From: Lactobacillus equicursoris DSM 19284 = JCM 14600 = CIP 110162
GTDB lineage: Bacteria > Bacillota > Bacilli > Lactobacillales > Lactobacillaceae
Length of the DNA stretch: 40,021 nucleotides
Assembly (NCBI RefSeq): GCF_001434815.1
Contig: NZ_AZDU01000016.1
Span: forward strand, 1 to 40,021
Direction of reading: 5' to 3'
Shown here: positions 6,357-35,056 of the stretch, piece by piece
Layout of the letters: each line of letters begins with the position of its first letter
How positions within the stretch are numbered: position 1 is the stretch's first letter
Position numbers and translations under genes: made by a program
The notes under the pieces: model-generated
Told to the model about the DNA's origin: nothing
The model's database searches: none
The model's input: only the letters and a program-made list of their open reading frames with translations

Positions 6357-6580
6357 TTAATTACTAAGAACAAGACTAGTAGCAAGGCTGAGCTTTAACA
6401 GGGAGGTTTCTTGGCAACTGAAAGGAAACTAAGGCAAGGCTTGTGAATTTCATCTTGCGAGTAGGATCTAATCAATTCCGGCTAACCACCGTTACTAGGT
6501 CAAGAGTGTAGGTCTTTTTGGCCTAAACTAGGGTGGTACCGCGAAGCTTCGTCCCTTTTGGGGACGGGGCTTTTTTTGTT
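6357..6580 (+). promoter_or_regulatory. T-box leader, phenylalanine type, controlling pheST
   Basis: tRNA-sensing riboswitch upstream of pheS. The T-box core AGGGTGGTACCGCG is at 6531-6544 and is followed by the terminator hairpin. The likely specifier codon is TTC (Phe) at 6449-6451 in the context GTGAAT-TTC-A; the methionine T-box in this window has the same GTGAA frame around ATG, which supports both readings. Uncharged tRNA-Phe should bind and favour the antiterminator. Confidence 0.92.
6545..6577 (+). terminator. T-box-controlled terminator before pheS
   Basis: AAGCTTCGTCCC pairs fully, with two G-T pairs, to GGGACGGGGCTT, then seven T. The 5' arm directly follows the T-box core, so the two structures compete. 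Confidence 0.9.
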
Positions 6581-33064: not shown

Positions 33065-33988
33065 TTACTTGTACAAAGCCGTTGACAAGTAGCGTTCGCC
33101 ATTGTCTGGGGCAACGGTGATAACCTTCTTGCCCTTGCCCAGCTTCTTAGCTAATTCAATGGCGCCGTGGATGTTGGCCCCAGCTGAGATCCCTGGCAAA
33201 AAGCCTTCCAAACGTGCCACTTCTCTAGCCGTTTCAAAAGCATCGTCGCTTGAAACTTCTACGATCCCGTCGAAGATTTCTTGGTCCAGGGTCTTAGGAA
33301 TAAAGCCGGCAGAGATTCCTTGAATCTTGTGTGGCCCCTTCTTGCCTTCCTTTAAAAGTGGTGATTCAGCTGGTTCTAAGGCGTAAACCTTGACGTCGCC
33401 CGCCTTCTTGAGGGCCCGGCCGATCCCAGTCAAGGTGCCGCCAGTCCCGACGCCAGCTACAAAGGCATCTGGCAAATCGCCTTCAAAGGCTTCAACGATT
33501 TCCTTACCAGTCGTCAATTCATGGATTTCTGGGTTGGCTGGGTTTTCAAACTGCATTGGCATGAAGTAGCCTTCGTTTTCAACTAATTCCTTAGCCTTAG
33601 CAATGGAAGCAGCCATGCCGCCCTTGCCATCAGTCAAGATCAGTTCAGCGCCGTAAGCACGAATAATCTTTTTTCTTTCATCGCTCATAGTTTCAGGCAT
33701 GATGATGGTGAGTTGGTAGCCCTTGGCGGAAGCCACGGCAGCCAGACCGATCCCGGTGTTGCCGGAAGTTGGCTCAACGATCTTGCTGCCAGGCTTCAGC
33801 TTGCCTTCCTTTTCTGCCTTTTCAATCATGGCCAGAGCAATCCGGTCCTTAATGGAGCCGCCAGGGTTAAAGAATTCCAGCTTAACGTAAACATCTGCAG
33901 CGTCTTTTGGGACGACCCGGTTGAGCTTTACGATTGGGGTGTTGCCGATAGTTTCCAAAATGTTGTTGTAGATCCGATTAGTAGACAT
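33065..33988 (-). CDS. cysK: cysteine synthase (O-acetylserine sulfhydrylase)
   Basis: Makes cysteine from O-acetylserine and sulfide. PLP Lys47 in GGSIKDR, the substrate loop [10 protein letters not shown] at about 73-82, and the phosphate-binding GTGGTLTG near 180 are present; 307 aa is normal. I start at ATG 33988, with AAGGAG 9 nt upstream; the upstream in-frame ATG is inside that site region. The start overlaps the end of the acyltransferase gene by 11 bases, so the pair is translationally coupled and forms a two-step Ser-to-Cys operon. Confidence 0.96.
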
Positions 33989-34790
33989 AGTATTGTGCTC
34001 CTTTTGCATTTTTTACAGTAGTCATCCAGTTGTTAAAAAAGTGTTTCTGCGTGCTCCGCCAGGTGAACAGGGGCAGAGCCATCGCGTCTTCATCTGCAAA
34101 ATAATTTTCAGGCTTAGCCAGGCCTTGGTCATCACCTCCTCTAGCGGTTAGTTCTCTTTGATATTCCTTTTGAAAGGCACTTGGTCCATACTCCAGGTGG
34201 GTAAAGAGGAAGCTTTGCTCGCCCTGGCTAGCCAAGGTCAGGTGGCCGCTTTCTGTGACCGCGTTGACCGTTAAGGGACTAGCCAAGACTTCGTCCACGT
34301 TCATCTCGGCGTAGCGGGCATGCGGGGCCTTGAAGCCTGCGGTTAAGCCTTTTAAAAGGGGTGTTTTGTTGAGGATCTCTTGCGGGTAAATGCCAAAAAG
34401 CTTCTCTGGCAATTCATGCTTCTCAATTCCGTAAAAGTACTTCATCGCCGCCATTGCCCCCCAGCAGACGTAGAGCTGGGGGATGCGCATGTCCTTTAAC
34501 AGATCAAAAAGCTGAGTAAGCTCTTGCCAGTAGTCGACTTCCTCAAAAGGGATGCGCTCGATTGGGGCCCCGGTAATGATGAAGCCATCGAGTTTCTTGA
34601 CTTGCTCGAAATCAAGCGAGGAAGCCTGCCAGCCAGCTGGTATCGGCTGCTTCATGTGGTGGCTTTTGGGGTAGAAGTAGCGAATTTCGACCTCGGGGTT
34701 GGCTCTTTTTAAGACATGAGTAAATCTTTTTTGCGTATCAACCTTGTCATGCATGATGTTGAGAACGCCGATTTTTAATTTCATGGTCAA
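33978..34790 (-). CDS. MetA/HTS-fold acyltransferase, probably serine O-acetyltransferase (often annotated homoserine O-succinyltransferase)
   Basis: Homoserine transsuccinylase fold of the glutamine-amidotransferase class: nucleophile Cys in [11 protein letters not shown] and the His-Glu pair in THLEYG. By name it would acylate homoserine, but the orthologous gene preceding cysK in Lactobacillus casei was shown to acetylate serine, and the overlap with cysK and the Cys-codon leader support the same function here. Start: AAAGGA at 34804-34799 sits 8 nt before TTG 34790 and 14 nt before ATG 34784, so TTG is slightly preferred; the difference is two residues. 270 aa, near the norm for the short lactobacillus form. 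Confidence 0.88.
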
Positions 34791-34826
34791 GCTGATGGTC
34801 CTTTCTAAAAAAGTAAAAATGGTAAC

Positions 34827-34861
34827 AAAAAAGACACGCATCTATTTCGGATACGTGTCTT
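34827..34861 (-). terminator. attenuator terminator between the Cys leader peptide and the cysteine operon
   Basis: Minus strand AAGACACGTAT (34861-34851) pairs with ATGCGTGTCTT (34841-34831, one G-T pair), ending in six T. It stands 37 bases before the first enzyme codon, after the promoter, so it must be conditionally bypassed for the operon to be expressed. Its 5' arm is also half of the antiterminator. Confidence 0.92.
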
Positions 34862-34943
34862 CAACAATCTGTGCTATTTATCTAGGCCAGTCATTTTCGC
34901 TAATTAACTCAGCCCACGCCAAATAGTGGATTGTCCAAGACAC
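34855..34943 (-). promoter_or_regulatory. antiterminator pairing of the cysteine attenuator
   Basis: Minus strand GTGTCTTGGACAATC (34943-34929) can pair with GATTGTTGAAGACAC (34869-34855): thirteen Watson-Crick pairs, one G-T and one mismatch in fifteen positions. The first segment is also the loop and 3' arm of the upstream hairpin; the second contains the 5' arm of the terminator. The three structures exclude one another. Confidence 0.85.
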
Positions 34944-34996
34944 AATCCACAACAACAAGTTTCTTGATTAGCGTTAAAAATTGACTTGCTGCTCAT
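34904..34996 (-). CDS. cysteine-rich leader peptide of the cysteine operon
   Basis: A 30-codon frame with a consensus AGGAGG (35010-35005) 8 nt before its ATG. The N-terminus is MSSKSIFNANQET, then Cys14-Cys15-Cys16-Gly-Leu-Cys19, and it stops 43 bases before the attenuator terminator. Four Cys in six codons is extreme for such a peptide. The triplet TGT codons end one base before hairpin 34950-34926 begins, so a ribosome waiting for Cys-tRNA would cover that hairpin's 5' arm. The peptide is a sensor of translation; no function of the product itself is suggested. Confidence 0.88.
   Translation of the reverse strand: MSSKSIFNANQETCCCGLCLGQSTIWRGLS
34926..34950 (-). promoter_or_regulatory. anti-antiterminator hairpin of the cysteine attenuator
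   Basis: Perfect 9-bp stem GTGGATTGT / ACAATCCAC with the loop GTCTTGG, starting at the last base pair of Cys codon 16. When it forms it locks up the antiterminator segment 34943-34929 and leaves the terminator free. Confidence 0.85.
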
Positions 34997-35027
34997 TTGG
35001 CGAACCTCCTAAAGAATTTATACTGAA

Positions 35028-35056
35028 AGTATACAGCTCTTTTCTTAAAACGACAA
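35028..35056 (-). promoter_or_regulatory. promoter of the cysteine operon leader
   Basis: Minus strand TTGTCG (35056-35051), 17 bp, TATACT (35033-35028). Predicted transcript start near 35021 gives a leader of about 230 nt. A second TATAAA at 35022-35017 has no matching -35. Confidence 0.65.

Follow-up and report, generated by a model that had tools for sequence, protein, structure and literature searches.

Introduction

The trp and his operons of Escherichia coli are the classical examples of ribosome-mediated attenuation. In the Firmicutes, attenuation by amino acid-specific leader peptides has long been deemed absent or rare, T-boxes serving instead (PMC2965389; PMC1262725), and the cases closest to the present one are Rli60 of the Listeria ilv-leu operon, a ribosome-mediated attenuator (PMC5864092), and the His leader peptides predicted before hisS*/hisZ in bacilli (PMC2965389). 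As regards cysteine, leaderless polycysteine ORFs acting by translation attenuation have been described in mycobacteria (Canestrari 2020, cited in PMC13236596), and Cys leader peptides have been predicted in Actinobacteria without conserved terminator hairpins (PMC1262725).

The locus considered here lies in a 40,021-nucleotide stretch of DNA from Lactobacillus equicursoris (hereafter the window, i.e., the whole stretch analysed), where a short ORF with a run of Cys codons precedes an hts-family acyltransferase gene and cysK; all coordinates are those of the window, and all elements of the leader and operon are read on the minus strand. With the classical attenuators (E. coli trp and his, Listeria Rli60), as far as their available descriptions go, this locus shares a leader ORF with regulatory codons, a mutually exclusive antiterminator and terminator, and the biosynthetic operon of the sensed amino acid downstream. 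It differs from them in that the amino acid sensed would be cysteine, in that the antiterminator strand lies directly 3' of the codons and, at sibling loci with Cys-ending peptides, in that the Cys codons are placed within or directly before the predicted terminator stem. With the mycobacterial polycysteine ORFs it has in common a short Cys-run ORF ahead of cysteine genes but, unlike these leaderless ORFs, for which the available descriptions give no conserved terminator, the window ORF is endowed with a Shine-Dalgarno (SD) motif and an intrinsic terminator. The His leaders of bacilli, likewise a predicted leader peptide system in Firmicutes, differ in the amino acid, histidine, and in the genes concerned. 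An earlier interpretation of the same DNA from its letters alone (hereafter the sequence-only reading) had held a Cys attenuator to be undescribed in lactobacilli, and literature searches, with most subscription papers outside their reach, indeed turned up no description of a cysteine leader attenuator in Lactobacillaceae. Since the structural features are in place and no earlier report was found, the window leader is, by testable structural features, a cysteine-specific variant of the classical attenuator, widespread in one family, the Lactobacillaceae.

The leader of the hts-cysK operon

The leader ORF (34904-34996) comprises 30 codons, encoding MSSKSIFNANQETCCCGLCLGQSTIWRGLS and followed by a stop, its translation being judged from the SD motif and open frame only; the SD, AGGAGG (35005-35010), also stands upstream of the leader ORFs of the two homologues, in genomes G001 and G031. 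Three consecutive Cys codons (TGT TGT TGT; codons 14-16, 34949-34957), considered as the sensing codons, are kept in both homologues, while the Cys codon at position 19 (34940-34942) is an Arg codon, CGT, in G031, where its pairing partners are changed to match. This AGGAGG and the 30-codon frame with its Cys codons had been pointed out in the sequence-only reading and are borne out, whereas the promoter it placed at 35056-35028 stands only in part: a putative sigma-70 promoter, TTGTCG-17-TATACT (35028-35056), matches the consensus at 9/12 positions, but promoter-type sites of this kind occur in the region at about chance frequency (2 found against 1.1 expected), for which reason the promoter evidence is weak. 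The arrangement suggests a transcript that would carry a 5' leader upstream of the ORF and be read from the SD. No Rfam RNA was matched in the window leader, even at E up to 1, nor did a T-box covariance model match upstream of the window hts.

Downstream of the terminator, as anticipated, lie the hts-family acyltransferase (33978-34784; Pfam HTS, 1.9e-63) and cysK, i.e., cysteine synthase A (33065-34009; TIGR01139, 440.8 bits, cut-off 350.95). In L. paracasei, the gene annotated metA upstream of cysK encodes a serine acetyltransferase (PMC6004538), and the window hts-cysK operon therefore very likely converts serine to cysteine. A second MetA-like protein, 37% identical to that of the window, is encoded in the same genome (L082, contig C114 of G000), no Cys-rich short ORF being listed in the 420 nt before this match. 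Elsewhere in the window, a T-box leader is found at 6357-6559 on the plus strand (Rfam RF00230, 97.9 bits), so T-box regulation is used elsewhere in the genome; the start of the ORF that follows resembles what we take to be pheS.

The leader RNA is predicted to adopt alternative structures. Hairpin A (34926-34950; arms 34950-34942 and 34934-34926; -11.8 kcal/mol), a protector competing with the antiterminator, has arms pairing at 9/9 positions in the window, G001 and G031. The antiterminator joins a 5' strand directly after the Cys run (34929-34943) to a 3' strand overlapping the terminator 5' arm (34855-34869), 14 of the 15 positions being paired in the window, namely 13 Watson-Crick pairs and one G-U, with one G-G mismatch. 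The intrinsic terminator (34827-34862; -17.1 kcal/mol) consists of a 13-bp stem (34862-34830) with a 7-nt loop and a U-tract (34832-34827). Antiterminator and terminator are mutually exclusive in the window, as is characteristic of a ribosome-mediated attenuator. These three elements had all been proposed from the letters alone, i.e., hairpin A at 34950-34926, an antiterminator for which recounting gave the same pairs, and a terminator ahead of the two genes. No mention had been made of an outer stem, closing the leader's own start codon (35002-34995/34924-34917; 8/8 pairs), or of an inner stem in which codons 2-5 pair with the Cys codons (34993-34984/34960-34951; 10/10 pairs), which together with hairpin A would build a cruciform (34917-35002; -31.6 kcal/mol).

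The RNA spanning 35030-34820 has a folding z of -4.22, none of 200 dinucleotide shuffles being as good; in its lowest-energy fold, the terminator accompanies the cruciform and its hairpin A. Two shorter RNAs, one starting at 34952 (z -4.72) and one at 34936 (z -5.35), where the loop of hairpin A and its 5' arm are missing, were likewise equalled by 0/200 shuffles each, and the latter folds into the distal portion of the antiterminator alongside the terminator. The predicted energies are close, with -34.0 kcal/mol for the antiterminator against the values given above for the cruciform and the terminator. Hairpin A is finished about 70 nt ahead of the completed antiterminator 3' strand, and its kinetic priority over the antiterminator is therefore plausible.

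Equilibrium folding with a modelled ribosome, the RNA being cut ahead of the terminator 3' arm, was run on 23 leaders. In the window, the lowest-energy structure contained the antiterminator when the ribosome was stalled and hairpin A when it was at the stop, an expected difference that was absent from the lowest-energy structures of G001 and G031. The probability that the terminator 5' arm is sequestered upstream, an average that includes other pairings of this arm, was 0.83 for the free window RNA, 0.66 with the ribosome stalled at codon 14 and 0.77 with the ribosome at the stop; despite the switch in lowest-energy structures, the window pairing probabilities do not increase with stalling. 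Sequestration increased upon stalling at the first Cys codon in 6/23 leaders and not in the others, including G001 and G031. In these models, equilibrium folding alone does not yield a clean switch.

Conservation in the genus

An HTS relative (E 1e-20 or better) is present in 15/75 genomes of the genus, and the leader was found at 3 of the 14 hts loci examined, namely in the window, G001 and G031. The homologous leader peptides are MFNNALQNMNFVNTCCCGLCLKQSTVWRTINSN (G001) and MSNKNLFQQNMTACCCGLRLKQSTIWRWLKAA (G031), and the AGGAGG, the Cys run, hairpin A, the antiterminator and the terminator are all kept in the three loci. The antiterminator pairs at 15/15 positions in G001 as well as in G031, the G-G mismatch of the window being an A-U pair in both. 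The outer stem (8/8 pairs in the window, 7/8 in G001, 8/8 in G031) and the inner stem (10/10, 6/10 and 7/10, respectively) of the cruciform are less well kept than hairpin A and the antiterminator.

In G031, the U at 34942 is replaced by C, turning Cys19 into Arg (CGT); one pair of hairpin A goes from U-A to C-G, the antiterminator partner, which also belongs to the terminator 5' arm, from A to G, and the terminator 3' arm from U to C. As the alignment reads, this compensatory change preserves RNA pairing and costs the peptide its Cys19 codon, which suggests that codons 14-16 rather than 19 act as the sensor; the Cys19 codon would then probably be structural rather than sensing. Aligned with its closest homologues, the leader thus retains its Cys codons and its alternative pairings, with a compensatory change. 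The sequence-only reading, according to which homologous leaders should hold both, stands for these two homologues; 11 of the 14 hts loci examined in the genus are leaderless.

A motif near CTTTACTTATTTTTTATAAGC was seen by eye immediately ahead of the gene at nine of these 11 leaderless loci (L092, L094-L098, L100, L101 and L106); it may be a transcription-factor site that replaces the leader. The G001 contig (L001) is titled Faecalicatena absiana, a member of the Lachnospiraceae in the NCBI taxonomy, while G001 stands in the genus of the window; the record is probably mislabelled.

Cys-run leaders across the Lactobacillaceae

A strict leader was defined as a short ORF after an SD-type motif with three Cys in six residues or a Cys-Cys end, sought for hts loci within 450 nt upstream. 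Among 397 genomes of the family, an HTS protein search gave a match at E 1e-40 or better in 105, and the hts set comprised 102 loci, i.e., 14 of the genus of the window and 88 others. It left out 18 matches, 17 of them at 38% identity or less and one a partial match in G417, and the genus set left out G011, which is interrupted by N, as well as the MetA paralogues found in G000, G001 and G031; about eight low-identity MetA-type paralogues stay among the 102 loci and count as misses. cysK2 was matched in 106/397 genomes, two partial matches (G425, G320) being left out of the set. Short upstream stretches were used unaltered (G388 in both sets, G202).

A strict leader was found at 45/102 hts loci, against 0/102 in the reverse complement and a mean of 1.6 and a maximum of 4 loci over 40 rounds of shuffling, and at 77/105 cysK2 loci, against none in the reverse complement and a mean of 0.77 and a maximum of 3 loci over 30 rounds; taken together, these leaders span 14 genera. 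By genus, hts leaders occur at 3/14 loci in g1, 18/19 in g4, 12/14 in g6, 2/4 in g13, 2/11 in g23 (Ligilactobacillus), 7/16 in g31 (Liquorilactobacillus) and 1/4 in g34, with 0/14 in g12 (Lacticaseibacillus) and none at the six loci of g2, g14, g15, g16 and g27. Cys triplets in short ORFs preceded by an SD are present at 39/102 hts and 65/105 cysK2 loci, with 0.0 expected from shuffles; when triple runs of the 20 amino acids were counted, Cys alone was enriched, every other occurring at no more than two loci. Hence a Cys leader attenuator, which the sequence-only reading had deemed unusual in lactobacilli, is by these counts common in the Lactobacillaceae, though present at just 3/14 hts loci in the window's own genus.

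The Cys run is constant across genera while the surrounding sequence differs, and the peptide residues upstream of it diverge widely among leaders. The cysK2 leaders share residues besides the Cys run, e.g., R-[FL]-x-R, and those 3' of the run coincide with the antiterminator strand. The strict criterion undercounts: a looser one was applied to 27 of the 28 cysK2 loci that lack a strict leader, and 25 show by eye a Cys-Cys ORF, many with a common R-C-x-A-C end and some with loose start codons only; these were left out of the counts because they are uncontrolled. A looser Cys ORF, outside the strict criterion, is also present in G116 (g4). With Rfam at gathering score, 40 related loci gave three T-box matches, none of them ahead of the gene, one being downstream (L156) and two on the opposite strand (L247 and L248).

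The breadth of the leader class was seen only when the search began from the genes. A degenerate CCCG-x-C codon pattern searched in the 397 genomes led to 30 inspected loci, all of which except that of the window looked out of frame or otherwise unconvincing by eye, and the reversed pattern likewise gave matches; at least one pattern match outside these 30 loci (G096:C62) turned out afterwards to be a genuine leader.

Terminators, antiterminators and other output architectures

A hairpin with U-tract of -9 kcal/mol or stronger lies past the stop in all 108 leaders with an internal Cys run (31 hts and 77 cysK2), against 6.2% of 324 shuffles. An upstream hairpin with U-tract of -12 or stronger is also present at 41/85 loci without a strict leader, in part because such loci carry leaders missed by the strict criterion. 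The segment that best complements the 5' arm of the terminator starts 0-8 nt past the Cys run in 72/77 cysK2 leaders and in 11/13 hts leaders outside g4, e.g., GCGTCTT/AAGACGC in g3 and GTGTCTT/AAGACAC in the window. In a swap test on 28 non-redundant leaders out of 90, the g4 hts leaders being left out, pairing with the own terminator averaged -12.25 against -8.98 (sd 0.43) with swapped ones, and 0/5000 permutations reached the own-pair mean; for the six non-redundant hts leaders alone, it was reached in 2/5000. The own terminator was the single best partner in just 6/28 non-redundant leaders, and the advantage of the antiterminator duplex over shuffled strands is modest, 39/108 leaders falling below 5% and 22/108 below 1%.

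The antiterminator rule fails in the g4 hts leaders (18 leaders, 4 non-redundant), where 4580/5000 permutations were as good; a separate antiterminator strand was rejected for them on this count, and a different pairing or kinetics must be at work. In an alignment of 19 g4 hts sequences, 14 pairs show two-sided changes, against 5.2 in shuffles; covariation is seen in hairpin A, in the terminator and in an outer stem, and 93.7% of cells are paired, against 35-49% when the alignment is slid.

Cys codons close the peptide of the remaining 14 hts leaders, whose architectures are single-sequence predictions without shuffle control. In six of them, the Cys codons together with the stop would make up the 5' arm of a hairpin resembling a terminator, and in six others a predicted hairpin with U-tract starts at or just past the stop, with loops of about 50-90 nt. 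In the last two (G430 and G149), pairing can occur between the hts SD and start codon and the leader's Cys codons and stop, which suggests a possible translational action on hts; at these loci (L158 and L159) the peptide ends in Cys-Cys-Cys, and the pairing with the hts SD/start is predicted at -25.1 kcal/mol. At L190, L199, L202 and L211, the Cys-run ORF ends about 270-300 nt upstream of hts and a long-looped hairpin with U-tract starts at or near its stop; a second short Cys-Cys ORF lies closer to hts at L199, L202 and L211.

The cysK2 operon of L. paracasei and its plasmid copies

In L. paracasei FAM18149, expression of cysK2-ctl1-cysE2 in cysteine-deficient medium was reported to exceed that in methionine-deficient medium by log2 2.9 to 3.2 (about 8-fold); high read coverage of its 5' UTR and a palindromic terminator were noted, and the mechanism of cysteine repression was termed yet to be discovered, the authors also invoking antisense RNA and a possible RNase III bias (PMC6004538). 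The published palindrome is one base off the terminator that follows the Cys leader in the L. casei/L. paracasei copies analysed here, with the difference that the available text of that paper mentions no leader ORF (PMC6004538). The cysE-cysK operon of the same strain gave log2 1.1 to 1.2 in RNA-seq with no significant change in RT-qPCR, and was considered constitutive by the authors (PMC6004538); a strict leader is found at none of the 14 Lacticaseibacillus hts loci. FAM18149 itself stands outside the genomes analysed, and its data concern another operon and another genus than the window; with this scope, the contrast between a responsive cysK2 operon, of a type that carries the leader in the L. 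paracasei copies analysed here, and a cysE-cysK operon taken as constitutive, of a type without a strict leader at the Lacticaseibacillus loci analysed, fits the attenuator model.

A query lying inside the cysK2 gene of G312 found 14 plasmid records, from L. casei, L. paracasei and L. rhamnosus, with an identity of at least 99%, and 13/14 of these plasmids are typed mobilizable. In an L. paracasei plasmid record, the gene order is cysteine synthase, PLP enzyme and serine O-acetyltransferase, and the operon is preceded by the ORF MTQSMFNAINCCCRTTRFWRCSAC and a terminator. The 345-base leader stretch reaches a query cover of at least 80% in 14 of 32 matching plasmid records, all Lacticaseibacillus, these 14 being listed in full with an identity of 98.8% or more; the 18 further records hold part of the stretch, those listed at about 89-91% identity. 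Locus L237 and the plasmid records place cysK2 with its Cys leader on Lacticaseibacillus plasmids.

Discussion

In our judgement, the window leader is very probably a ribosome-mediated transcription attenuator sensing charged tRNA-Cys. The three-way switch with classical geometry put forward in the sequence-only reading is supported by the present analysis, and is kept with a compensatory change in the two closest homologues. A ribosome would translate the Cys-run leader peptide on the nascent RNA. When Cys-tRNA is scarce, it would stall at codons 14-16 and cover the 5' arm of hairpin A, so that 34943-34929 could pair with 34869-34855 before the terminator 3' arm exists; with the antiterminator formed, the RNA polymerase would continue into hts-cysK. 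When cysteine is ample, the ribosome would get to the stop codon, cover distal parts of the antiterminator and then depart, and upon its release hairpin A, the cruciform and the terminator would form and transcription would stop, the cruciform additionally shutting the leader's own start codon. For the organism of the window, we infer expression, stalling, kinetics and a cysteine response of this kind, with readthrough into the operon increasing upon cysteine shortage.

At the scale of the Lactobacillaceae, it seems likely that these leaders make up a leader-peptide regulon that is specific for cysteine, extends through the family (at least 14 genera) and covers two operon types, hts-cysK and cysK2-ctl1-cysE2. 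Sensing would follow the same principle throughout and act through different outputs, i.e., an antiterminator strand after the Cys codons, Cys codons and stop within or directly before the terminator stem, or, in two genomes, Cys codons pairing with the hts SD and start codon.

Other explanations can be weighed against the attenuator. An ORF and hairpins brought together by chance ahead of a constitutive operon with an upstream terminator would agree with a promoter match at background frequency and with 11/14 leaderless hts loci among those examined in the genus, but folding z values of -4.2 to -5.35, the compensatory changes in G031 and the Cys-specific enrichment across the family make such a coincidence hardly credible. 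It is also very improbable that another RNA sensor, such as a T-box or a metabolite riboswitch, acts here with the Cys ORF being incidental: a T-box is indeed used in the window genome (6357-6559) and L. paracasei has a T-box for Cys (PMC6004538), but the window leader is without an Rfam match at E up to 1, the T-box matches in the 40 related loci lie downstream of the gene or on the opposite strand, and the element constant across genera is the Cys run, set in varying sequence.

The readthrough might instead be set by translation of the leader itself rather than by codon-specific stalling, the leader being then a general translation or drug sensor, or encoding a nascent-chain arrest peptide. 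In its favour, drug genes of B. subtilis are under ribosome-dependent leaders of this sort (PMC4191407; PMC6851288; PMC9226507), and the cysK2 leaders share residues besides the Cys run (e.g., R-[FL]-x-R). On the other side, the downstream genes here make cysteine, Cys is the sole enriched amino-acid run, the shared residues 3' of the run coincide with the antiterminator strand and the peptide sequences ahead of the run are widely divergent. This explanation appears improbable, and sensing of charged tRNA-Cys by stalling at the Cys run is the reading retained here.

A cysteine-specific class of leaders over 14 genera of lactic acid bacteria would account mechanistically for a cysteine response that has been published without an explanation and that, in L. 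paracasei, has been linked to the sulfur flavour of cheese (PMC6004538). If the regulon reading is true, it explains the cysteine repression of cysK2-ctl1-cysE2, and it further implies that ribosomes must keep pace with the RNA polymerase on these leaders, unlike in B. subtilis, for which runaway transcription has been reported (PMC7858274). As such, the leaders would allow the coupling of transcription to translation to be tested readily in vivo, in bacteria whose lineage is related to that of B. subtilis.
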